From the NCBI GenBank assembly GCA_963082975.1, contig OY720344.1:8109580-8173579 (forward strand): a stretch of 64,000 nt of DNA, in the 5' to 3' direction. The position numbers and the translations under genes are program-made. This document shows, piece after piece, positions 30,501 through 61,304 of the stretch (positions are counted from its first letter, which is position 1; every line of letters starts with the position of its first letter). A model generated the notes under the pieces. That model did not search any database, was not told the DNA's origin, and saw only the letters and a program-made list of their open reading frames with translations. Source of the DNA: Labia minor (taxonomy: Eukaryota; Arthropoda; Insecta; Dermaptera; Spongiphoridae).

Positions 30501-33056
30501 AGCCCGTCAAAACACATTTGGAAACGTTGAAATGAGTAGTCCTACTTCACCCGCCGTATTTTCCAGACATTACTCCCTCCGACTACTTATTTGTTTCGAT
30601 CAATGACAAACGGCCTAACTGACCAGTATGATTCGTAAGCTGCCCGAAAAATGGGAGAAAGTAGTAACTAGCGATGGACAATATTTTGAATCATAAATAA
30701 AGTGACCATAAGTCCCGTTTTGAACGTGACAGTTCTGTTTTCAGGTAGCTTGTCCCTTATTTTAAATTTATTATTATATTATTATTCTAAGTTAGTGTTA
30801 TATTATTTACTATATTTTTCAGTTATTTTCATTATAATAAACAGAAATAATGAAAAATATACGTTTACTTAATAGCTTCCCCAAACTATTACCGAAAATT
30901 AAAAAATGTCCCGTTTTTAGGAAAAAAATAAATGGAAAAAAAGTACCAAAGTGATTAAGAAAAATTTTATTTTATAATATTGAAAAAATGTACCTGATAA
31001 TTTAGGAGCAGTATGTAAAATAAGCCAGCGTAAAGTAACATTGCACTCTCTTGAAACATTAAGAATTTTAGTTACATGTCCAAGAACTGCCTCTTCATTT
31101 AAAACGCCTTCTTTTAATAATTGTTGAGTATGTTGCACTAATTTTATAATATGCTGAGCATGTCTTTGAGCGCAATCACGAATATTTCCGGAATCAAGAG
31201 TATTGCTAAGAGCAGATCTTGCAGCTCTATATGGCTCCCATGAATCAGCAAGATTCACTACAATGCCCATATAAACACTAACCTGAAAAAATTAGTACAT
31301 ATTTATTTATATATCAAATTTAAATCTAAATAAATTAAATAACATACTATCCAATTGTCTGGAAAATATTTATCAACTATTTCGCGCATTCTAGCTGTTT
31401 GATTATGTAATGTATTTGGTGAAAAGAATAAACAAACATAAAGCATTGCTCCTTGACCAGCCAATGCTGCACTTCGATGTTCTGGTGATGGATAAGTACT
31501 TAACTGATTATAAATATCATCAGATCTAAGTCTTCCTATCACCATATCAATAAATGTAGTATTAATAGGTATTCGGCTAAAATAAAAAAAAAATTCTAAT
31601 TAACATTTAATGATGGGAAATGTATAAGGGAATTTTGTAAATAAAACCACATATTGATATTTTTTATTGAAAATTTATTCAAAAAAATACACGTTTCGAT
31701 TGCTACTTCTGCAATCGTTATCAAGCGACTGCACTGTCCGAGCGTCCAGTGCCGACATATTACAGAAACGTTGTGTATTTTTTGTATTTTTTTTGAATAA
31801 ATTTACAATAAAAAATATTAATATGTGGTTTTATTTACAAAATTCCCTTATAAATAAAAACAGCCACCAAAGCTTTAATAATTTAATATCTACAAAATGG
31901 GAAATGTATTTTGCGGAACTAGTAATAAAAACATTTACTTGAAATATTCTTCTGGATAGTTAGAAACTCGTTTAGCCCCCGTATTATTTGAAAAGCCAGT
32001 TGATCGTAATAATTTGCAGACATCATCAATATTACTATCATCACTTGATCGCTTTGAACAATAACGATAATAAGCAACTAACATTCGTTCTCGAACGGGG
32101 CCTTCAATATGAAGATCGAGTACAATTAACATAACTCCATAAAGATAAAGTGATTCACACTAAAAAAATATCAAAAATATGAAATCATATAATAAATAAT
32201 AAAAAAGTATTATTTCTTACCAATAATTGTTTGCCTTCTACAAGAAGAAATATACTTTCCAGACTTTGTTGAATATAAATGCCTTCCTCAAGCTCTTCAA
32301 GAAAATGATTTAAATCATTAATATAATTATGAATCGATTCAAAAGCTAAATAAAAACGTGTTAAAATTTCTATATTATTTTCGCGAAATTCTTCATCTAA
32401 ATCTTGTAAAACCTGAAAGTAAATTTCTATAATATTTTCATATAAATCTTTCAGTATATTTAAGAAATAAAAATTATACTCACAGGATTTGAATCTATTT
32501 TATGATTAAAACTTTCTGATGTTTTAAAATATGTAAAATCACTGATAATTTCGCCATATTTTTGAATATCATGTTTTAATTCTAATCTAAAGAAAATTAA
32601 AAATACAAATAAAAGATAAATTATACATTTCTTCGAAATTATTTATTATTATAGTTTTACAGTAAAAGTATTAAAACTAGAGGAATGTATATCAGGTATA
32701 TATATGAGTGTTGTCGAATAAATGAATAAGATCATAGATTAATTTCTTAACTTTTCTATTAACACAAATATAAAATATGTATTGGAATTAGGAAAAGGAT
32801 GTTAGAATTTAATTCTTTTTTAATACCAGCTATTAAATAATTTATTTAGAATAGGAATCGATGAAAATCATGCTAAATCATGCTAAATATCATCAATGAG
32901 TTCAAAATCACAATTATTTTGGAATATTACACACCGAAAAACTGGAGGAATGTACTGTCGGAGTCTTAAAAGTTCAGCAATGATGGCATTTCCTCGAGAA
33001 ACAAGTCGCAATAGTGTTTGACCACAGGGACTATCATCGGCTAAGAAATCCGTCAT
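24593..33056 (-). CDS. WASHC5: WASH complex subunit 5 (strumpellin)
   Basis: Complete 20-exon gene, 1167 residues (human about 1159): 32935-33056, 32484-32586, 32221-32412, 31939-32159, 31348-31576, 30994-31282, 29649-29785, 28929-29046, 28733-28852, 28419-28654, 28149-28259, 27543-27866, 26497-26616, 26206-26393, 25923-26085, 25748-25850, 25489-25672, 25132-25358, 24840-24996, 24593-24752. The start is [13 protein letters not shown]. The adjacent upstream ATG is out of frame. Landmarks in order are [101 protein letters not shown] and [11 protein letters not shown], all conserved strumpellin blocks. Role in the family: scaffold of the WASH complex, which activates Arp2/3 on endosomes and drives receptor sorting. 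Intron 6 holds a dead mariner and intron 4 a hairpin MITE; neither disturbs the exons. Confidence 0.97.
26617..27542. other. Large WASHC5 intron 12
   Basis: A 926-bp AT-rich intron with no recognisable element; most neighbouring introns are under 400 bp. Confidence 0.5.
29955..30700 (+). pseudogene. Dead mariner transposase in WASHC5 intron 6
   Basis: Plus-strand frames give [40 protein letters not shown], a [12 protein letters not shown] block (first catalytic Asp region), [29 protein letters not shown] and a degraded YL.RSMTNGL segment. The order is that of mariner transposases. At least six in-frame stops and shifts are present, the start is missing and I see no clear inverted ends. It lies antisense to WASHC5 inside a 1.2-kb intron, explaining that intron's size. 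Confidence 0.85.
31627..31848. mobile_element. Palindromic MITE in WASHC5 intron 4
   Basis: 222-bp hairpin whose left arm starts AGGGAATTTTGTAAATAAAA and whose right arm is its near-perfect complement (arms about 75 bp), flanked by TA on both sides. This matches non-autonomous Tc1/mariner-type elements. The arms include CACGTTTC/GAAACGTTGTG. The central loop (about 31705-31765) is GC-richer. No coding capacity. Confidence 0.8.
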
Positions 33057-46483: not shown

Positions 46484-47640
46484 TTCCAATTTATAATTAA
46501 AATAATTTATGTTACAAATTATTAAATTAAAAACTATTATTCATATATACCAATAATTATTAAAACAAATCAAAAATGAAGTTAGAGAATTCATAGAATA
46601 TAGTTGTAAGAAAATGAATTGACAGTTTTGAAATGGATAAATGAAAATTATATATATATATATAAATTATCATAAAATATAATATTATTAATAAGATAAA
46701 GAATAAATATAGATAAAAATAAATAATAATATATATCAAAATTAAAATTTATTATAATAAATTAAATAATAAATTTATATATGTATATTTTAATAAAAAA
46801 AAAAAAAGATTTAATAAAATCATTTAATATATTTGATTTAATTAATTTTTAAATATTTTTAAAATATTTTATTTTATATTTTAATTTTATTTTTTAATAA
46901 AAAAGAAGTGATATGATTGTAAATGAGAGCGCTCTTACGTCCAATTTTAAAAATCATATATCAACATATCCCATACAATCCCATATCATTAATTTATAAC
47001 ATACAAAATTTAAAAGAAAAAACCTTTCATTTTTTGAAAAAAAAAGAATGAATAAGTTATATACTGAAAATTGTATTTTAATGTTAAATTATACAAATAT
47101 TATTTTAATATTTTTTTTAACTAATATTTATTTTTTTCAAATAAAAATTATTTATCCTTCTCAAATAATGTTTTATTTTAATTTTCATTCTTTTTTTAAA
47201 ATATTAAAAAAAAGTTTATTATAAATTTAACGAAATACATAAGCAGTACTGGGACCACTGGGACAAAAAGAATTTGTACCGGGAATAAGTATCCTTATCC
47301 CACCGTGAGTGGCGCTACTTTTGTCTACCAAATACGACTAAACTAAACATATGAGTTGCAGGTCTATATTATCTATGATCATTATCTGACAATAGCTGGT
47401 TAGCTGGTTATAACGGGCAAATCTTGTTTCTGCTTGTTTCTATCATTTGGACTGAATTGGACATATTAATTTAAATTTTTATATTTTGTCGATGTAAAAA
47501 TCTCTATTTTTATCAAAAGGAATAATTTCTCTTTCCACAAAAGTTTGTTAGTGCAATTTAAATCTTATATTTCATTCTTTATTTATATTTTATTAAAAGA
47601 AAACGAAAATTATTTTTTCAGATTTTATAAATTTAGAAAA
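46484..47640. promoter_or_regulatory. Divergent promoter region, CSN3 / TBP
   Basis: 1.16 kb between two divergent start codons. The CSN3 side is almost pure AT. The TBP side (47230-47460) is GC-richer. A TTTTTTCAG acceptor-like sequence ends at about 47621, 20 bases before the TBP start, so TBP may have a 5' untranslated exon in this region. Confidence 0.4.
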
Positions 47641-48570
47641 ATGGAACAAATGCTTCCCAGTCCGGGATTCTCTATCCCAAGTATTGGAACTCCTTTACAT
47701 CAACCAGAAGAGGATCAACAAATTTTGCCTCAAGCTCAACAACAGCAACAACAACAACAACCTCAAATACAACCTACAACATCTCAACAGCCATCGTCAC
47801 AGATTCTACAACAAATGCCAAGTTTGGCTACACCACAAAAATCAATGCATTCTTATGCACCAGCATTTGCAACTCCACAAAGTATGATGCAGCCACAAAC
47901 GCCGCAAAATATGATGTCTCCACTCGTTGGAGGCCCTGGCAGTAATGCTCTTGGAGGTGGAAATTCAAGTATTCTCGGACCATCTACCCCTGGCCCTTTG
48001 ACACCGATGACACCCTCATCAGCCGACCCAGGAATTGTACCTCAATTACAGAATATTGTCTCAACAGTTAATCTTAGTTGTAAATTGGATTTGAAGAGAA
48101 TCGCTTTGCATGCACGTAATGCTGAATATAATCCTAAACGTTTCGCTGCAGTAATAATGCGTATTCGCGAACCACGTACCACCGCTCTTATTTTCTCATC
48201 AGGTAAAATGGTATGCACTGGCGCCAAAAGTGAAGATGATTCAAGACTTGCAGCAAGAAAATATGCAAGAATTATTCAAAAACTTGGTTTTACTGCTAAA
48301 TTTTTAGATTTTAAAATTCAAAATATGGTTGGAAGTTGTGATGTAAAATTTCCTATTCGTTTAGAAGGTTTAGTTTTAACACATGGACAATTTAGTAGTT
48401 ATGAACCTGAATTATTTCCAGGATTAATTTATCGAATGGTGAGGCCGCGTATTGTACTTTTAATATTTGTATCTGGAAAAGTTGTTTTAACAGGAGCAAA
48501 GGTTCGTCAAGAAATTTATGAAGCTTTTGATAATATTTATCCTATTTTAAAAGGTTTTAAAAAGCAATAA
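47641..48570 (+). CDS. Tbp: TATA-binding protein
   Basis: 309 residues in one uninterrupted coding exon. The start [20 protein letters not shown] is the conserved animal TBP N-terminus. The open frame extends 32 codons further 5', but that part is low-complexity and precedes an acceptor-like site. Residues about 30-70 are Gln-rich ([14 protein letters not shown]), followed by Pro/Ser/Thr-rich sequence. The final 180 residues are the complete saddle: [40 protein letters not shown], then the second repeat [39 protein letters not shown] and the end [10 protein letters not shown]. It nucleates TFIID and also serves RNA polymerases I and III. The core shows no substitution that looks damaging. Confidence 0.98.
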
Positions 48571-50145: not shown

Positions 50146-50890
50146 TACATCTATCATTAGAGATAGATCATTCTTATTATTGTTTGAATTCTTAAAACCT
50201 GTTTTTAGTTAAGAAGAATATCAAATTATGAAATATTTTAATATTGAAAATATATCAATTTTGAGAGTTTTCTATATAAATTTTTAATGCATCTAGCTAC
50301 AATTAATTAAATTTAAATTCATTTCAAAATAATTTGTTAATTTTATTTAGATTTAAATTATGATCATCGTTTTATTACAATATAAAATTAAAATATAATT
50401 ACAAAAATATACATGTTGAATATAAATCATCCATAAAATTAAAAAAATAGGTATTTATAAGTTAACTGGATGAAAATTTTCTAATAAGTTTATTTATGTA
50501 TGCGTTTGTATATTGAATAGTTTTATTAACTTAATATTTGAGGAATAATCATAGAATATAGAATTTTTTTTTAAAATCTCGCGAATTTTTAAAATTACTT
50601 TTCGAATATTGCATAATTAATTTTTCATTTTTTATTTAATTTTCAAATTAATTTGCACATTTTATATTATTTGAATAATTATATTTATAGTTTTAATGAT
50701 ATTTAATTTTTAAATAGTTGTCCACACTGAAAAATTTCAAAAGTGAGTTTGACAGAAACATTTTTATTTATTTAAATGCTATATAAACTTATATTAATTT
50801 TTTATTTATATAATAGAGCACTAATAAAATTAATAATTAAAATAAAATACACATAAATGTATATATTTTTAAATGAAATAATTACCAAGA
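50146..50890. promoter_or_regulatory. Upstream flank of WDR70
   Basis: AT-rich sequence 5' of the WDR70 start. Presumed promoter; no motif identified. Confidence 0.3.
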
Positions 50891-53056
50891 ATGGAGAATA
50901 AAAATAAAAAAATAACTTTTGGGAAAATTGGAGCTTTTTTAACAAAAAAGGACGATACAAATTGTGAAGTTATAGAAAATTTAGAAAAATTCAAACCGAA
51001 TGAAAAGGAAATTTTAATTGAAGATTTGGGAGTAGATGATGAGAGTCATGAAATTACTAATACCATGGGCTTCTCAGGTTTTGGTAAAAAAAAGTCAAAA
51101 CAATTTAATTTAGATGAACTTGTTCAAGAAGCAAAACGGATTGCTAAGAATCGCAATAAAATTAATGAAAAAAATGATTCAATAAATGAACCAACTCCTG
51201 GTCCTTCGAAAGAAAATGAAGAAAAAGAAGATGAAGAGGAAAATGAATGGGTTGGTCCACAAATTCCTCAAGAATTTCTAAATTCCAAAAGAATTGAAGA
51301 TAATGAAGAAAACGAGATCTCTGATGAGGACGAGGATGATGAAAATAAAATTCCATCAAGTAGCGAAGTATCTATTGCTCATGGAAATAAGGCTGTCGTT
51401 GCGATTTCAATTGATCCAGCGGGCGCAAGATTAGCGACTGGTTCTGTTGATTATGAGGTTCGATTTTGGGATTTTGCAGGAATGGATACATCTCTGCAGA
51501 GCTTCCGACAACTTCAACCTTGTGAGAATCATCCAATTAAATGTCTTCATTATTCAATTACTGGTGATGTTATTTTAGTAATATCTGGAATGTCACAAGC
51601 TAAAGTATTAGATAGAGATGGATTTGAAATAGCTGAATGTGTTAAAGGAGATCAATATATAGCAGATATGAAACGAACCAAAGGCCATATAGCTCCTTTG
51701 AATTCAGGTTGTTGGCATCCAAAAATACGTGAAGAATTTTTAACTTGCTCTGAAGATTCCACTTGTCGATTGTGGGATATCAATCGGGCATATACTCACA
51801 AAGCCATAATCAAAACAAGAGCCCATAATGGCCTTAAAACCAATCCAACAGCTTGTACTTTTAGTCGAGATGGAAATTTAGTAGCCTGTGCATGTACTGA
51901 TGGTTCCATTCAGATGTGGGATCATCGAAAGGCTTATGTAAATACATCCATGCTTTTGCGGGGAGCTCATCAATCGGGCTATGAAATCTCCTCACTCACC
52001 TTCTCCTATTTAAGTAATTTATTAGCAACACGAAGTTGTGATGATACTTTAAAGTTGTGGGATATAAGAAGTTTTAAAAAACCTGTACATACCGTTGGGG
52101 ATTTATTTTCCCGGTATCCCACTACCGATTGTTCTTTCAGTCCGGATGATTCTATGGTTTTAACAGGGACATCAATGAAAAAAACCGATTCTAATGGACA
52201 ATTATTATTTTACAATACAAAAACATTCGAAAAACTTCGTGAAATTAATGTTTCTAATTCGCATATTATAAAATCATTCTGGCATCCAAAATTAAATCAA
52301 ATTTTTGTAGGATGTGGTAATGGTGTTGTTAAAATATATTATGATGAAATTAAAAGTTTAAGGGGAGCAAAATTATGTATTAAAAAATCAAAACGCAAAG
52401 TACATTATGAAGAGGTAGTATCAGCTCAACAAGTATTAACGCCACACGCACTTCCCTTATTCCGTCAAGATCGACCACAATCTTATAGAAAACAAATGGA
52501 AAAAGCTCGTCAAGATCCTGTTAAATCAAGAAGGCCAGATTTACCTTTATCTCAAGGTTGTGGTGGACGTGTAGCTACATCTGGTTTGTATTTTTTTGAA
52601 TTTTGTGCTTGTAATATTTGGTTATGTTTCCAACTTAATTTTTTTAATAGCAATATCTTATTAAAACACAATTATTTTCTCCAATATTTCGATTACTTTT
52701 TATTTAGATCCAAATATATTATATTATTTTATATCTATTATTATTTTGAGATTTGAAATATCTAACATTCTTATTTATTTTATTCATACAAATATTATAA
52801 AATAATAAATATAAATATTTTTATCTTTATAGGTGGTACTTTAAGTTCATATGTTATCAGAACGCTTGGTCTTAGTAAGAGAGTTGAAGATGATCAAGAT
52901 CCCCGTGAAGCTATTCTACGATTTGCTAAAGAAGCAGAAGAAAATCCATATTGGATTGCACCAGCATATGCAAAAACACAACCACAAACTATTTTTCAAA
53001 ATACGGATGACGATACTGATGAACCTTCATCAAAAAAGAGTAAAACCTCTAAATAG
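50891..53056 (+). CDS. WDR70: WD repeat-containing protein 70
   Basis: Two exons (50891-52583 and 52833-53056), 638 residues. The junction GCTACATCTG/GTTTGT joins to AG/GTGGTACTTT and restores the conserved GGRVATSGGTLSSY. Without splicing the frame runs into a hydrophobic intronic tail. Residues 1-155 are acidic and disordered, with a conserved TNTMGFSGFGKKKSKQFNLD segment. The central part is a WD propeller with blade ends ATGSVDYEVRFWDF, TCSEDSTCRLWDI, ACTDGSIQMWDHR and TRSCDDTLKLWDIR. The C-terminus contains DPREAILRFAKEAEENPYWI and a Lys-rich end. In yeast and human cells WDR70 relatives act with CUL4-DDB1-type ligases in chromatin and DNA-break responses; here the role is inferred from the family. 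Confidence 0.95.
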
Positions 53057-53518: not shown

Positions 53519-53860
53519 TCTGCGCCTGGCCACAGGTCAACTTATTTATAATTATTTTTACATATAAATTTGTATTTTTATTAATATAATATTTTTTAAA
53601 TATTAACTTGCTTTATAATTTTATTTATTTTAAAAATTTCTCAATTTTATAAAATAAAAAGGATATAATTAGTATGGTAGTGATCAGAAAGGTATGGACA
53701 AGTATGGAAATAATATACATATAGAGAATATTTCTATACATTAACATTGTTTAGATTGTGTGTTTAGTGTTATCAATATTTAATACATATTATTTAAATT
53801 AATTGGTTATTTTTTACAGATTTTTGTTCTTTTTGATATTATACATATATATTATATTTA

Positions 53861-54105
53861 CCAGCTGGTCAGAGCGCCTTCGGCGCTCTTCACACCTGGA
53901 CGGGTGCTCCGCCCCCTGTACCCCCAGTGGTACATAGTATTTGGTTAAAAGTAGTAAAAGGTTTTCATCCATTTTGTTTCAATCAGTATATTACATAAAA
54001 CATTCATTTCTTTTTGTGTTCTTATTTAAAATATATTTTAATTTAATCAGTAAATTAATTATATATATTATTATTGTATATGTTATATCTAGCTATTTCT
54101 ATAGC
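53861..54105 (-). mobile_element. Helitron-like 3' terminus, copy 1
   Basis: Read on the minus strand, the sequence ends with GGGGGCGGAGCACCCGTCC, then a hairpin GAGCGCC/GGCGCTC (53872-53888), then a short TGACCAGCTGG tail. GC-rich 3' hairpins a few bases before a CTRR end are the Helitron signature. The direct copy at 57267-57495 ends in CTAG exactly, so this copy has a one-base change (CTGG). Confidence 0.6.
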
Positions 54106-54555
54106 TCAAAGATACTCGAAAGTTCTTGGCCACATTTCTCCAAATATCCCTATCCTGAGCCCTTGTCCCATCTCTCTTACGTCCCTTCCTATGCGTCCAT
54201 GGTCTTGATTCCCTTTGATAATAATTTTGATGAGATAAGCCTCTTTACTGCATGATAACAGGCGTTTCCCGATTGATATCTCGATTTAAATTCTTCTCAA
54301 ATATTATTATCCTTCGTGATTACATTCAATTTTTCTACATTTTTTTTGTATATTAAGATTTTGTATGTTAATACTGTGTTCCTCTTTGTCACTAAATATT
54401 TTTTCTTATCACTATTAATTTCAAACCTCAATTAATTTTTCCACGCTATCTGTAATTGCAATTGCCGAATCTCTTATAATATTTAAGACGTCTGCTTAGC
54501 CTAACATTTCAATTATTTTGTTTAATTGCATTTCGAGTGATTTTTTCCCAATTTG
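54106..54555 (-). pseudogene. RTE-like LINE 3' fragment, copy 1
   Basis: Minus-strand segments VLNIIRDSAIAITDSVEKLI and, further on, GLRIGIFGEMWPRTFEY match the corresponding parts of copy 2 at 57496-58130 and the LINE tail at 12270. The segment holding YKTIILSVVLYECETWS in copy 2 is deleted here. It lies between Helitron helicase and Helitron 3' end, so it appears nested. Confidence 0.6.
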
Positions 54556-54905
54556 TGTAATCACATACTCACAACATGCAACATATAATTGGCCGTGGGA
54601 AAAACATGGGGATTGCAAATGAATTCCGCAGCACTTGAGTGTCTGGCCCTGAGCTTGGAACATGGTCATATCGGCGGTCAAAGTTGAAAATTCCCCATAT
54701 ATTATATAACTACTGTAATTAGTATTATTATAATGTAAAATTATAAAGAAAAAATGTTTAGATATTATTGTAGACATTTTCATTCTGTAAATTAAATAAT
54801 TTTATTTCATTTAAATAAATACCTATTTTTAAATATTTTTTGCTCCCTATATTATTTATCTAATTCTCAAAATATATTAAGATCATATAAATTGGAATTA
54901 TTTAT
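54556..54905 (-). pseudogene. Helitron helicase C-terminal fragment
   Basis: Minus-strand translation contains FQAQGQTLKCCGIHLQSPCF then SHGQLYVACCEYV, the final conserved block of the PIF1-like helicase of Helitrons (usually GQTL...G..L..P.FSHGQLYVA.SR). Upstream flanking sequence (54725-54905) is repeated inverted at 56340-56511, and a truncated copy of the helicase codons (around YGGIFNFDR) occurs on the plus strand at 61305-61364. The reading frame then runs into LINE sequence. Confidence 0.75.
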
Positions 54906-56154: not shown

Positions 56155-56511
56155 ATGTATTATTGAGGACCCCAGTTCCATTCATTTTAATCAGATTGAT
56201 GCAATGATAATAATTATAATAAATCAATTAAAAAATTGTATATCAGCTCGGTGTCCCAAGTATTAATATCAGCCAAACCCAATAATAATGAATTAATTTT
56301 TTTTAAGTTAATTACCGAGCCGAGGCTCAGGGTCCCGGTATGATCTTAATATATTGTGAGAATTAGATAAATAATGTATAGAGAAAAAAATATTTAAAAA
56401 TAGATATTTATTTAAATGAAATAAAATTATTTAATTTACAGAATGAAAATGTCTACAATAATATCTAAGTATTTTTTCTTTATAATTTTACATTATAATA
56501 ATCTATGCGCA
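56155..56511 (+). repeat. Repeat with ACCGAGCCGAGGCTC motif and Helitron flank
   Basis: 56155-56335 matches 62400-62625, including CAGCTCGGTGTCCC and TACCGAGCCGAGGCTCAGGG. It is fused to 56340-56511, the inverted copy of the Helitron flank at 54725-54905. The homology breaks off at about 56511, where a GC-rich CGCACGGCAGTGCGCCGGCC segment begins. Confidence 0.65.
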
Positions 56512-57230
56512 CGGCAGTGCGCCGGCCAAGTTCCAGCAAGCCGCGCGCATGCCGTAAGTATATTTACACGAATGGTTTGGAGTCACTTTTGACCCCCCTG
56601 TATCTCAGTGCCTATTGCAAGTACAGAGATAAAATTTTATCTACGTAGTCATATACTAGAACTAAAGCAGTATGCCAAATTTCATAGTTATAGCTTCAGT
56701 AGATCCTGAAATATGTCCCTGTGAAAATAGCTTATTTTGGAACTGATTCACTGATTGGTCAACAAAATTCTTAGGGTATTTCCAATTGTCCTAGCGCTAT
56801 GAAATTTGGCATACAGGTCTTGTGTTATAAGTAGGTTAACAAAAAATTATGAAATTTAAGAAATCGGTCAAGCTTGAGTTGTTATAATCGAATATCAATG
56901 CGATTTTAACGAATTCAAACGAATTCATTGGTTTTGTCAGAAACTAATCAAGCTAGGACTTCGAAATTTGGTACACCGATATTATTCACAGTTTGTAGAT
57001 TTCTTTTAAAATTTCGTCAAAATCGGTTAACCGGAAGTGGTACTTTACCTACACTGGTTGCGTTTACCTTTCAAGTAAAGTACCAGTTTGCTTCGAGATA
57101 TTTGCTTCATATTTTGTATATAGATTTAAAAATATGAAAAAAATTCAGATACCAAATTTCATCATGATCTGACTACCGGAAGTGACATTTTACCTATACA
57201 AGTAGCGTTAGGTGTAAATTATAAATATAT
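56512..57230. repeat. Decayed interspersed repeat
   Basis: Repeated internal phrases such as TGCCAAATTTCAT, GAAATTTGGCATAC and CCGGAAGTG(A/G)(T/C)A(C/T)TTT, spaced at roughly 100-150 bases. These look like the 3' untranslated tail of a LINE or a related non-autonomous repeat. No protein recognised. Confidence 0.4.
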
Positions 57231-57266
57231 ATAATAGTGTTAAACCATTTTACTTTATAATTTAAA

Positions 57267-57495
57267 CTAGCTGCTCAGAGCTCCTTCGTCGCTCTTCACA
57301 TCTAGACGGGGGCTCCGCCCCCTGTACCCCCGAGTTGTACATAGTATTTGGTTGAAAGTAGTAAAAGGTTTTCATCCATTTTGTTTCAATCAATGTATAA
57401 CATAAAACATTCATTTCTTATTGTGTGATTATTTAAAATATATTTTAATTTAATCAGTAAATTAATTATATATATTTTTATTGAATATGTTATAA
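57267..57495 (-). mobile_element. Helitron-like 3' terminus, copy 2
   Basis: Direct copy of 53861-54105. On the minus strand it shows GGGGGCGGAGCCCCCGTC, a decayed hairpin (GAGCGAC/GGAGCTC) and ends TGAGCAGCTAG followed by T, the expected CTAG terminus and A/T insertion context of Helitrons. Confidence 0.65.
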
Positions 57496-58130
57496 CTATC
57501 TACTCGAAAGTTCTTGGCAGCTACAACTACATTTCTCCAAGTGTTCTTATCCTGAGCCTCTGTTCCATCTTTCTTACGTCATTCCCTGGTGTCCTCATCT
57601 TTGGCCCATAAATGCTGGGAAGAATCCTATTCTCAAATACTCTGAATCCACTCTCATCTCCTAAGATCATAGACCATGTCTCACACTCATATAATACAAC
57701 AGACAAAATAATTGTTTTATATATTTTAATTTTCATTCCCTTTTATAATAATTTTGATGAGATAAGCCTCTTTACTGAATGATAACAGGCGTTTCCCGAT
57801 TGCAACTTCGATTTAAATTCTTCTCAAATATTATTATTCTTCGTGATTACATTCAATTTTTCTACATATTCAAATTCTACATTTTGTATGTTAATACTGC
57901 TCCTGTTTGTTTCTAAATATATTTATTTATCATTATTAATTTCAAACCTCATCTCTTTTCCTACCTCGATTAATTTTTCCTCGCTATCTGTAATTGCAAT
58001 TGCCGAATCTCCTATTATATTTAAGTCGTCTGGGTCACCTAATATTTTACAATTGATTTCCGCATCTTACTCTTTCTTTACTACCTTCAAGATATATTTT
58101 AAGATCAAAATTTGAAAAAGTTTATCCGGA
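57496..58130 (-). pseudogene. RTE-like LINE reverse transcriptase fragment, copy 2
   Basis: Minus-strand frames give, in order, DPDDLNIIGDSAIAITDSEE (the ADD motif region with Ala changed to Pro), KLIEVGKEMRFEINND, KLQSGNACYHSVKRLISSKL, then KIYKTIILSVVLYECETWSM and FRVFENRILPSIYGPK. This is the palm-to-thumb order of RTE-like reverse transcriptases. Stops and frameshifts separate the blocks, so the copy is dead. Like copy 1 it sits directly next to a Helitron 3' end. Confidence 0.8.
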
Positions 58131-59361
58131 TCTATTGAGTCATGCGTAGGTTTTACTAAAGTCTACAAATAATTAGTGAACATAGATATCGAATTCGCTG
58201 TTTTTTTTAATATCTGTCATAATGAAAATATCTTAATTAATGTTGATCGATTTGGCATGAACCCGCAATGATATCGTCTAATATTTCCTCCGCCTATAGT
58301 TATAAGTATTGTATATGTTATAATAGAGTATAATATTTCTTGATCATTTCATTTTGATATTTTAATTTCATTGCTTGATTTTTATTGAATATTTTTAATT
58401 ATATAAAATTTTAGAAAATGCAAAGTTAGGGACTTGAGACAATTTATAAAAATTAACGGTATAAAAGTATTGATAAAACTAAAGATTAATTAATTTTTTT
58501 AGATCTTAGTTAATTCCCTCCCTTAAAATAAAAGAAGTATTCAAATATAGAAAGAATAAATACAAAATAATTTAAGTTAAATATGATTTAAATATTTTAT
58601 TATATTAATTAAAATGAGAACTTTTAGAATAAATTATTTAATTGAAATGATATTTGAATATTAGAATTTAAAATAAAAAGTTAAAATTTATAATAATTCT
58701 TTGATTGCTAGTTATATACATTGTGTAAAATGAGTCCGCCAGTCAGTGGGCCACGCCTGGCTCTTGAATGAACAACACAGAGAACTATATAAACTTTAAA
58801 AAATTAAATTCTGCGGTTATTGATTAGAATTAGATATTAATAAAATCTATAGCCTATGTTACCATAGAGATATATAAGAATATTGTGATGTAATTTCATA
58901 GAAATCGTTTCTTATTTTTTGATGTTCATAATTCTAAATTACCGGTAAAGTGTCGGTTAAGTAGGAAATTTCTTTTTTGTTTGTTTCTATGACAGCAAAA
59001 AAGTAAACAAATTACATACATATATACATATATACATACATACATACATACAAACACTCTCCTTTATATATATAGATTAATGTTTGTTTATTTTTATTGT
59101 TATAACTTAACAGTTTCTATATAATTTTCAATTAATATTAATAGTTCTAATTATTTATTATTCAATACAAGTTGGAAATTCAGAACTATAAAATAAAAGA
59201 ACAAATAAAATTATTATATTTAATATATAAACAAATATAATTTTAATTTAAAAAAATTTGCAATTTTTTTAAACACAAAATTACTTCAAAGGCTAAGAAT
59301 GGACGCGGGCGCGGCACAAAAAGGAAAAAATAGGAAGCTTTCTTAAAAAAAAGTATTGAAA
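58131..59361. other. AT-rich repeat-island spacer
   Basis: Gene-free. Contains a (CATA)n microsatellite at about 59016-59050. A GC-rich patch with GGACGCGGGCGCGGCAC lies near 59301. No function recognised. Confidence 0.45.
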
Positions 59362-59734
59362 TCTAATCAAAAACATACCTGTTAAAAAGGGGGCCAAGTT
59401 CCTATCGGCTATTTGTTTGCCTAAAAAAGGGTTCAAATCCATCCCAATGCCAAGTTTAGATGCACTTAAAAATCATTCATAATCATTTTTATCAATAGCC
59501 TGATCCACTGGTAAACATTTGGCATTCCAAAGAATCGCCACCACACCCAGTCCTCCGCCTCCTGCATCCAGGCACGCCACTTTATTCACGTCAACGGTCC
59601 ATCTGGCCGAAATTCACTTTACCATACACCCAACTTAAAATATGGTATAGTTGTTAAAATACGTAGGTACATGGTTTAAAATATCTAAAATTATAATACT
59701 TAGAAATTTGAACTTGGCAGGTTTTCGTACTGTA
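59362..59734 (-). repeat. Left arm of a large inverted repeat
   Basis: Reverse complement of 60922-61295 over about 373 bases with only a handful of differences by eye. Outer edge is at TCTAATCAAAAACATACC, inner edge at CGTACTGTAC. The arm contains an exon-like segment (described under the right arm). Confidence 0.85.
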
Positions 59735-59758
59735 CGTAACACTAGATTAATTGTAATA

Positions 59759-60684
59759 GGTTGGGGAAAAAGAAATCCATTATTTTTACGTGAACTTCAA
59801 GACTTTATTTAACATGTTTTGCATTGTCCGATTTAGGTCAAATATGCACCATTTTGTTCTATAATTTGTTGCCATTTTAATGGTAGCTTCATTATGCCTC
59901 TCTCATAAAAGTCTTGGTCCTTATTAGCGAAAAACTCCAGCAATTGATTTTCACACTCTTCCCTTGATGCCAATTTCTTATCACTAAAACACGCTTTGAC
60001 CACGATCGCTTTCGCATAATGTTGTCGTATGTGACCCATTTCTCATCCCCAGTCACCATCCGTTTAAGAAATGGGTTGATTTCATTACGTTTGGCCAAGG
60101 CTTCGCAGATGGAAATTCGATCCATCATGTTTTTTGGTGTTAATTGGTGTGGCACCCAAACATCAAGCTTTTTTTTAAACCCAGCTTTGTGCAAATGGTT
60201 TAAAACTGTTTTGTGGTCGATCTTTAACTCCTGGGCGATGCTACGACTACTAAAATGCCGGTCCACTTCGATGATTTCAGTGACTTTGTCGACATTTTCG
60301 ACGACGGGCCTGCCTGTGCGAGGGGCATCCTTAACGTCAAAAATACCCGAACGGAATCGACGAAACCAAAATTGCGCGTAATTAGCTGTTACAGTATCGG
60401 GACCATAAACACTATTCACATTTTCAGCCGCCTGACTTGCATTTTCGCCCTTATCAAAGAAAAACTGTAAAATGTACCGAATTTTCTCTTTGTTGACTTC
60501 CATCTTTAACGGCGTGTAACTCAGAACTGAATGGATAAAACAAAAAACTGCAAACGAATTATTTTAGTGCGAACTGTTTCCTTGACAACGAGCATAAATT
60601 TGAAATTGTTTGATCGATAATTTACGAGATATCGATCACTACAGCCATCTACCGAAAAAATAATGGATTTCTTTTTCCCCAACC
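59759..60684 (-). mobile_element. Mariner element, internally deleted, with perfect 29-bp TIRs
   Basis: Both ends carry an identical 29-bp inverted repeat starting GGTTGGGGAAAAAGAAATCC (59759-59787 and 60656-60684), flanked by TA at 59757-59758 and 60685-60686. Length 926 bp versus about 1.3 kb for intact relatives. It sits between the arms of the 59.4-61.3 kb inverted repeat. Perfect termini and duplication indicate a recent insertion; a full-length source elsewhere in the genome would be needed to move it. Confidence 0.95.
59833..60503 (-). pseudogene. Mariner transposase with internal deletion
   Basis: Starts MEVNKEKIRYILQFFFDKGE. The paired helix-turn-helix region is intact (ASQAAENVNSVYG, SIAQELKIDHKTVLNHLHKA), followed by the WVPHQLT linker and VTGDEKWVTYDN with the first catalytic Asp (near residue 153). 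After KRSWSKR, at about 60000, a deletion shifts the frame and removes the second and third catalytic residues. The distal part resumes in another frame as ECENQLLEFFANKDQDFYER and ends WQQIIEQNGAYLT. The protein could in principle still bind the element ends but not cut. Confidence 0.92.
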
Positions 60685-60732
60685 TAATATAATTATATTT
60701 TTATTATTTAAATATATAAATTAACCTGCTAA

Positions 60733-60908
60733 TTCTAAGTATTAAAATTGTAGATATTTTAAACCAAGTACCTACGTATTTTAACAACTACATATACCAT
60801 AATTTAAGTTGGGTATATGGTAAAGTGAATTTCGGCCAGATGAACCGTTGACGTGAATAAAGTGGCGTGTAGTGTGCCTGGATGCAGGAGGCGGAGGACT
60901 TGGTGTGG
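60733..60908 (+). repeat. Extra direct copy of part of the inverted-repeat arm
   Basis: Matches 60951-61120 in the same orientation (TACCTACGTATTTTAACAAC, GAATTTCGGCCAGATG, CGTTGACGTGAATAAAGTGG, GATGCAGGAGGCGGAGGAC) with more differences than between the two arms, so it is an older or partly diverged copy. Confidence 0.75.
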
Positions 60909-60921
60909 GACTGAGTGTTTT

Positions 60922-61295
60922 GTACAGCACGAAAACCTGCCAAGTTCAAATTTCTAAGTATTATAATTTTAGATATTTTAAAACATGTACCTACGTATTT
61001 TAACAACTATACCATATTTTAAGTTGGGTGTATGGTAAAGTGAATTTCGGCCAGATGGACCGTTGACGTGAATAAAGTGGCGTGCCTGGATGCAGGAGGC
61101 GGAGGACTGGGTGTGGTGGCGATTCTTTGGAATGCCAAATGTTTACCAGTGGATCAGGCTGTTGATAAAAATGATTATGAATGATTTTTAAGTGCATCTA
61201 AACTTGGCATTGGGATGGATTTGAACCCTTTTTTAGGCAAACAAATAGCCGATAGGAACTTGGCCCCCTTTTTAACAGGTATGTTTTTGATTAGA
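60922..61295 (+). repeat. Right arm of the inverted repeat, with exon-like segment
   Basis: Complement of 59362-59734. In one forward frame it reads LDAGGGGLGVVAILWNAKCL then PVDQAVDKNDYE, a stop, and FLSASKLGIGMDLNPFLGKQ, IADRNLAPFLTG. The second block begins after a TTTTTAAG acceptor-like site (about 61190) and ends at ACAG/GTATGT (about 61279-61285), a consensus donor. This looks like a captured gene piece, but I cannot name the source protein. The same segment is present in mirror image in the left arm. Confidence 0.6.
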
Positions 61296-61304
61296 TACTA
61301 ATTA

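Follow-up and report, generated by a model that had tools for sequence, protein, structure and literature searches.

A near-perfect inverted repeat in Labia minor is probably the 5'-terminal module of a non-autonomous Helitron-like transposon with homogenized arms

Introduction

Canonical Helitrons (Helitron1) begin with TC, end in CTRR, have a 3' hairpin and insert between A and T (A^T), according to the available portions of three reports (PMC5148889, PMC6544945, PMC4778049). Helitron2 elements and Helentrons are described, in texts accessible in part, as carrying asymmetric or subterminal inverted repeats, with Helentrons targeting TT (PMC5148889, PMC4067079). In HINE and DINE-1 elements the 5' subterminal repeat finds its complement in a further, short inverted repeat (PMC4067079, PMC7492417, partial texts), and in the accessible passages the HINE repeat of the oyster measures 7-12 bp with its halves 1-12 or 3-22 bp apart.

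Recombination between inverted arms has been described in two settings. The accessible part of a study of the human Y palindrome P6 records 56 conversions and 3 inversions among 83 phased chromosomes (PMC3723533). In yeast, template switching at short inverted repeats leads to both arm homogenization and spacer inversion; the available sections describe a search from 7 bp with spacers up to 70 bp, and examples up to 16 bp (PMC8604942).

We analyzed a 64-kb stretch of the Labia minor genome (positions 8109580-8173579 of contig C1 in an assembly of 604 Mb and 71 contigs), hereafter the window. Near its end lies an inverted repeat. We conclude with high confidence that this repeat makes up the 5'-terminal part of a Helitron-like, non-autonomous transposon and that its two arms are homogenized within copies. 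Its arms measure 383 bp and normally stand about 230 bp apart, far from the dimensions of the HINE repeat. Like P6, the family shows arm-to-arm gene conversion with occasional inversion; P6 is one palindrome at one chromosomal site, its arms many kilobases long, whereas here an arm of 383 bp is repeated in hundreds of mobile copies. The yeast events resemble ours in that arms are homogenized and the spacer inverted, but their arms are much shorter.

Results

Structure of the inverted repeat

Aligned without gaps (59361-59743 against 60914-61296), the two arms were identical at 378 of 383 positions (98.7%). A sequence-only reading of the window had reported a near-perfect inverted repeat by eye and had proposed an identity of about 85% as the level below which the claim should fall; the repeat is borne out well over that level. 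The five mismatches (59496, 59674, 59729, 59736 and 59737) pile up at the inner edge, with 3 in the last 15 nucleotides and 2 in the outer 368 (Fisher p = 0.0005). Other repeats in the window at E <= 1e-15 are 74-95% identical, in agreement with that reading, which had called most of them strongly diverged. The arms had no match in the rest of the window; the genome contains hundreds of copies of the element.

Between the arms lies a further repeat, X2, which was absent from the earlier description. It has the orientation of the right (P) arm and stands in tandem beside it. Over 175 aligned columns X2 differed from the arms at 13-14, although it aligned poorly at the inner end; its identity was about 89% with gaps and 93-96% in ungapped blocks. 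Folding of 59361-61296 with RNAfold gave -984 kcal/mol, against -443 to -473 kcal/mol for 5 mononucleotide shuffles.

Elsewhere in the window, some 240 nt at 31620-31855 match their own inverted complement at 76% identity and form an older palindrome. The GC content of 25% and the gene content would suit an insect. A TATA-binding protein gene (47470-48570, plus strand, Pfam TBP 2e-68) and a WD40 protein gene (50882-52756, plus strand) adjoin the transposon-rich end of the window.

Table 1. Positions of the element, its parts and its nested insertions in the window. A caret marks the boundary between host and element.
Feature	Position	Strand	Description and basis
Whole Helitron-like element	56502..61295	-	Termini from 23 two-ended copies and two paralogous empty sites
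3' end	56502..56534	-	GGAACTTGGCC (complement of 5' GGCCAAGTTCC), hairpin GCGCAC-TGCC-GTGCGC, ATAGA, host T
Nested canonical Helitron	57267..59076	-	TC...CTAG between A and T; junctions by eye against copy L012
Q arm	59361..59743	+	The element's first 383 bp repeated internally in inverse orientation; repeat finding and alignment
Stretch from Q arm to X2	59744..60732	.	AT-rich, contains the mariner
Mariner-type deletion derivative	59756..60687	-	TA at 59754-59755 and 60688-60689; exact ends by eye from the empty site
X2	60733..60908	-	Older tandem copy of the arm's inner half, between the arms
P arm	60914..61296	-	5'-terminal; element 5' end A^TCTAATC; 61296 taken as the host A
Empty site of the window insertion, paralogous	54658..54789	+	Joined flanks 95.5% identical over 133 columns

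The repeat belongs to a mobile element with defined ends

A genome search with the left arm gave 652 candidate places, and the best 40 were scored. All 40 were two-armed (39 partners and the window's own copy), and the best-scoring arms among them were 99% like those of the window. From this search we took a first sample of 31 copies, ranked by their best single arm: the window copy (L010), L009 and L012-L040. In 31/31 copies one arm ran on into a common element sequence. Outside the other arm the flanks differed in nearly all 31; L012 and L018 shared theirs because both had entered the same repeat.

The 5' end read A^TC in 30 of the 31 copies and was mutated in one, the preceding A being present in 31/31. 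At the other end, all 23 copies whose 3' end fell in the fetched stretch read ATAGA^T. The element runs from 5' TCTAATC... to 3' ...GTGCGCATAGA. An asymmetric subterminal inverted repeat of 11 bp (5' GGCCAAGTTCC, 3' GGAACTTGGCC) was recognized by eye. The 3' hairpin of the window copy has a 6-bp stem and a 4-nt loop and stands 5 nt before the end; by eye, 4/23 copies carried a changed base in its stem or loop. The longer L009 stretch folded otherwise, though both halves of the stem are present. Matches to the 3'-end 30-mer with at most 2 mismatches numbered 219 + 212 = 431 in the genome and 0 for the reversed control, so the genome holds roughly 430 copies of the element.

Two paralogous sites without the element fix its target. 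The joined flanks of the window copy match one of these closely (Table 1), and those of L009 are 84% identical to the element-free stretch 53963-54079, apart from a gap of 8 nt close to the junction, a few bases away. Since both pairs of joined flanks match element-free paralogues, the element inserts into AT dinucleotides, with no duplication or, formally, a 2-bp AT duplication.

The window copy is 4794 bp long with its two nested insertions and about 2050 bp without them. The common form, about 2.05 kb, consists of the P arm, X2 and a short AT-rich loop, the inverted Q arm and a tail of about 1.05 kb. By pairing of the two arms, its 5' part could form a hairpin some 1 kb in length. Pairwise tail divergence in the family was 1.3%. 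A reading of the arms as two solo elements facing opposite ways was rejected, many copies showing one two-armed unit. The sequence-only reading had listed an assembly artefact among the outcomes that would refute it; as 40/40 of the best-scoring arm places, together with 18/22 elements chosen regardless of their arms, were two-armed, a one-off artefact is very unlikely.

Nested insertions

The sequence-only reading placed the inverted repeat "around a mariner". A mariner-type element does lie between the arms, but its presence is incidental: the loop of the sister copy L009, on contig C2, has an empty site, and the mariner is therefore a later insertion. The inverted repeats of the 30 other first-sample copies span 775-999 bp and leave no room for a mariner. 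The inserted element has the TA duplication, terminal inverted repeats and Mos1-type transposase of a mariner, in the form of a deletion derivative that keeps the DNA-binding (HTH) half of a Mos1-like transposase and lacks the mid-part of the catalytic region (Pfam HTH_48 1.4e-15; PDB 3hos 4.9e-26 across residues 23-188). Among the best 40 of 1424 candidates, 39 other copies of the same short form (about 930 bp) were 98-99% identical, as if a single defective form had multiplied in a recent burst. Another mariner copy lies about 370 bp outside the L009 element. No relatives of the mariner were confirmed in viral contigs.

The second insertion, a canonical Helitron, is common to L009 and the window copy, whereas L012, a copy of 2 kb, lacks it. 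It belongs to a family with a GAGCGCCGAAGGCGCTC-type palindrome and a CTAG end that is also found at 53860-54518. A 3' end of this type also occurs in stretch L079, some 4 kb downstream of a Rep-helicase locus with a 2039-aa frame near C5:34916909. By eye, a minus-strand frame at 54520-54660 resembles the C-terminal portion of a Helitron's Pif1-type helicase; it had no Pfam match.

Relation to described elements and search for a partner

The element shares with canonical Helitrons the 5' TC, insertion between A and T without a larger duplication, and a hairpin near the 3' end. It differs from them in ending in ATAGA, CTRR being absent in 23/23 copies, and in carrying its first 383 bp a second time in inverted orientation; the stretches examined yielded no Rep-helicase element to match it. 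With Helitron2/Helentron, HINE and DINE-1 elements it has in common the asymmetric subterminal inverted repeat, the 3' palindrome and a tandem internal repeat, but its target is A^T and not TT (Helentron) or TTTT-T/C (Helitron2). Because the defining feature tested fails for each group (no CTRR, no TT target), we call the element Helitron-like only; on its termini and target it appears to be a member of neither Helitron1 nor Helitron2/Helentron. Full-text searches of open PMC papers turned up no title or abstract opening describing a Helitron-type element with an inverted 5' duplication of hundreds of base pairs or with arm conversion, a weak negative given the partial texts covered.

We found 104 matches to Helitron Rep domains in the genome. 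The ends of the element had no convincing match in six stretches around three RepHel loci (L077-L082), nor in 12 PF14214 stretches (L041-L052), whose 1500-base flanks may fall short of the ends. By eye, 0/22 PF14214 places on C1 lay within 15 kb of the 79 C1 3' ends among the matches listed (100 of 431). On contig C5 (G000:C5:46739897-46792979), Rep domains recur at even intervals of about 9.8 and 5.7 kb in what looks like a tandem Helitron array; five of these domains have the same score.

Other origins were also considered. A tRNA or SINE origin was rejected, with no tRNA and no Rfam family at gathering score. One frame of the arm seemed to resemble the C-terminus of LINE ORF2; this reading was rejected too, the frame having no Pfam match and no degenerate-motif match in viral contigs. 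Exact arm motifs had no match in viral and GTDB contigs, and a distant BLAST search of phages and plasmids gave none.

Arms are homogenized within copies

Ranking by the single best arm should enrich for copies with one clean arm, and a second sample was therefore chosen by similarity of the tail and not of the arms. It comprised the 24 of 34 tail matches that were neither the window copy nor in the first sample (L053-L076, about 1 kb each). Both arms were present in 18/24; two places lacked the element (L053, which contains Ns, and L055), and in L064, L066, L069 and L070 one arm was complete and the other fragmentary or missing in the fetched stretch. L070 also has several extra partial copies of the inner repeat. 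We divided the arm into an outer half, on the side of the transposon terminus (positions 1-180), and an inner half, covered by X2 (181-345).

In the 18 tail-picked two-armed copies, the outer half held 18 distinct substitutions present in both arms of a copy and 0 in one arm, while the inner half held 7 in both arms and 15 in one (Fisher p = 6e-6 for outer versus inner); in addition, an 11-nt deletion affects a single arm of L063 in this half. Across the outer 180 positions the arms of a copy did not differ at all, against 1.65% between copies, and in the inner half the difference was 0.51% within and 1.10% between copies. Counted by copy, 39 states were shared between arms, compared with a mean of 5.5 and a maximum of 22 in 5000 shuffles. 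Such copy-level counts overstate the number of events, since some changes (e.g. 84A, 154T) were inherited by sister copies; the values 18, 7 and 15 are distinct changes.

The first sample gave the same signal in weaker form. Over positions 1-360, 17 states were shared and 44 unshared (shuffled mean 1.4, maximum 9 of 2000); over positions 1-180, the copy-level states were 10 shared and 8 unshared, and the distinct changes 6 in both arms and 8 in one arm, two of them adjacent. The weakness probably reflects the picking of copies by their single best arm. Outer and inner halves differed here also (Fisher p = 0.012; 26/31 copies, leaving out L009 and four short forms), but because arm selection biases this sample the claim rests on the tail-picked one. 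Two comparisons were set aside: the lower number of private changes in arms than in tails of the first sample, which is confounded by arm selection, and a surplus of transversions in the shared changes (17, with 8 transitions; in the tail, 78 with 65), which was not significant (p = 0.28).

Two variants could be traced to single copies. The changes at position 54 of L033 and position 73 of L032 are in both arms of their own copy, and for either variant a 31-mer containing it has just two genomic matches, one in each arm of the copy concerned.

The loop between the arms inverts

In most copies X2 adjoins the P arm. The loop was flipped, with X2 beside the Q arm, in 5/27 readable copies of the first sample (L017, L024, L028, L030 and L031); the number readable is 27 because four short forms have lost a separate X2. 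A further 5/18 were flipped in the tail-picked sample (L056, L060, L061, L067 and L074), giving 10/45 overall. The group L017, L024 and L028 and the pair L030 and L031 carry different tail markers, none exclusively shared, and L067 is flipped yet has the both-arm 154T in common with five unflipped copies. There have been at least two inversion events and probably more, and exchange between the arms is the simplest cause.

In the short forms (L029, L034, L040 and L037) the inverted repeat is only 775-784 bp, and L029 and L034 have X2-type bases in the inner P arm, as if a deletion had fused X and X2. Two substitutions in the inner half match the corresponding base of the window X2, namely 328C, which L059 has in both arms, and 188A, which L068 has in one, and are compatible with occasional copying from X2.

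Discussion

The two arms of a copy carry the same changes, and the loop between them inverts; the arms are therefore homogenized within copies, by recombination or template switching, and are not merely young. On our reading the element would move in single-stranded form, relying on a trans-acting Rep-helicase. Homogenization would take place mostly after insertion, by intramolecular gene conversion or by replication template switching, the data being in keeping with either, and would work best on the outer half of the arm. This outer bias may come from initiation at the transposon end or from interference by X2 over the inner half. The more specific proposal, that the copying is driven by events at the transposon end, such as nicking or the stalling of a fork where the hairpin begins, and would be strongest at the terminus of a rolling-circle-type element, we put forward only tentatively.

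Homogenization might instead be confined to transposition, with a folded-back single-stranded intermediate whose stem mismatches are repaired, so that every new insertion starts with identical arms. Helitron-type elements have been proposed to move as single strands, and a 5'-end nick starts the rolling-circle model in the accessible part of that account (PMC4778049); such a nick would fit the outer bias. Mutations arising after insertion should then be found in one arm, however, and the private rate of 0.0034 per bp in first-sample tails predicts about 22 of them over 18 x 360 bp of outer arm. The observed number was 0, which points to homogenization that continues after insertion. The copy-private variants present in both arms also count against this alternative, although an unsampled or lost source copy would be another way to explain them. 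We regard it as unlikely.

The sequence-only reading had suggested a hairpin-RNA role. A dedicated locus giving endogenous siRNAs, like the hpRNAs of Drosophila, would account for the long near-perfect stem, and the available text of one report describes the handling of such transcripts by Dcr-2/AGO2 in that insect (PMC10292708). The locus is, however, one of about 430 transposon copies and not a dedicated hpRNA gene, and its arms match no gene inside the window. As for an origin of the arms in a host target gene, the best 40 of the 652 genome arm places were all two-armed copies of the family. A hairpin-RNA role is not needed to account for the structure, and we consider a dedicated hpRNA locus very improbable; any double-stranded RNA made from the locus would be expected to match the transposon family itself first.

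Youth was the other half of the original suggestion that the repeat is either young or being homogenized. The family is indeed fairly young, as the tail divergence and the 99% likeness of the best-scoring arms to those of the window attest, and a young inverted duplication in a young family could in principle yield similar arms with no homogenization. It would not, however, place copy-specific changes in both arms far above chance, nor put each of two variants private to one copy genome-wide into both its arms, nor leave an arm divergence of 1.3-1.4% between copies beside 0.24% within them, and we give this explanation hardly any weight. Least credible of all is a Foldback/Galileo-type cut-and-paste element with the arms as its terminal inverted repeats, since the likeness to Galileo in long inverted arms, internal tandem repeats and inserted transposons (PMC4168063, partial text) is offset by the presence of only one arm at a terminus, the other having some 1.05 kb of sequence specific to the element, with a hairpin at its end, beyond it, and by the lack of the 7-8 bp target duplication, at most a 2-bp AT being seen.

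Near-perfect arms thus do not in themselves indicate youth. The genome carries hundreds of near-identical inverted repeats, similar in size and spacing and each set in a flank of its own, which together make up a natural reporter of recombination in which the element tail acts as a clock beside each inverted repeat. The conversion rate of inverted repeats, the frequency of spacer flips and the polarity of conversion become measurable without engineered constructs. If conversion starts at the transposon end, the biochemistry of transposition would be linked to self-repair of the terminus, and each element would retain a perfect inverted duplicate of the sequence required for its transposition to start.
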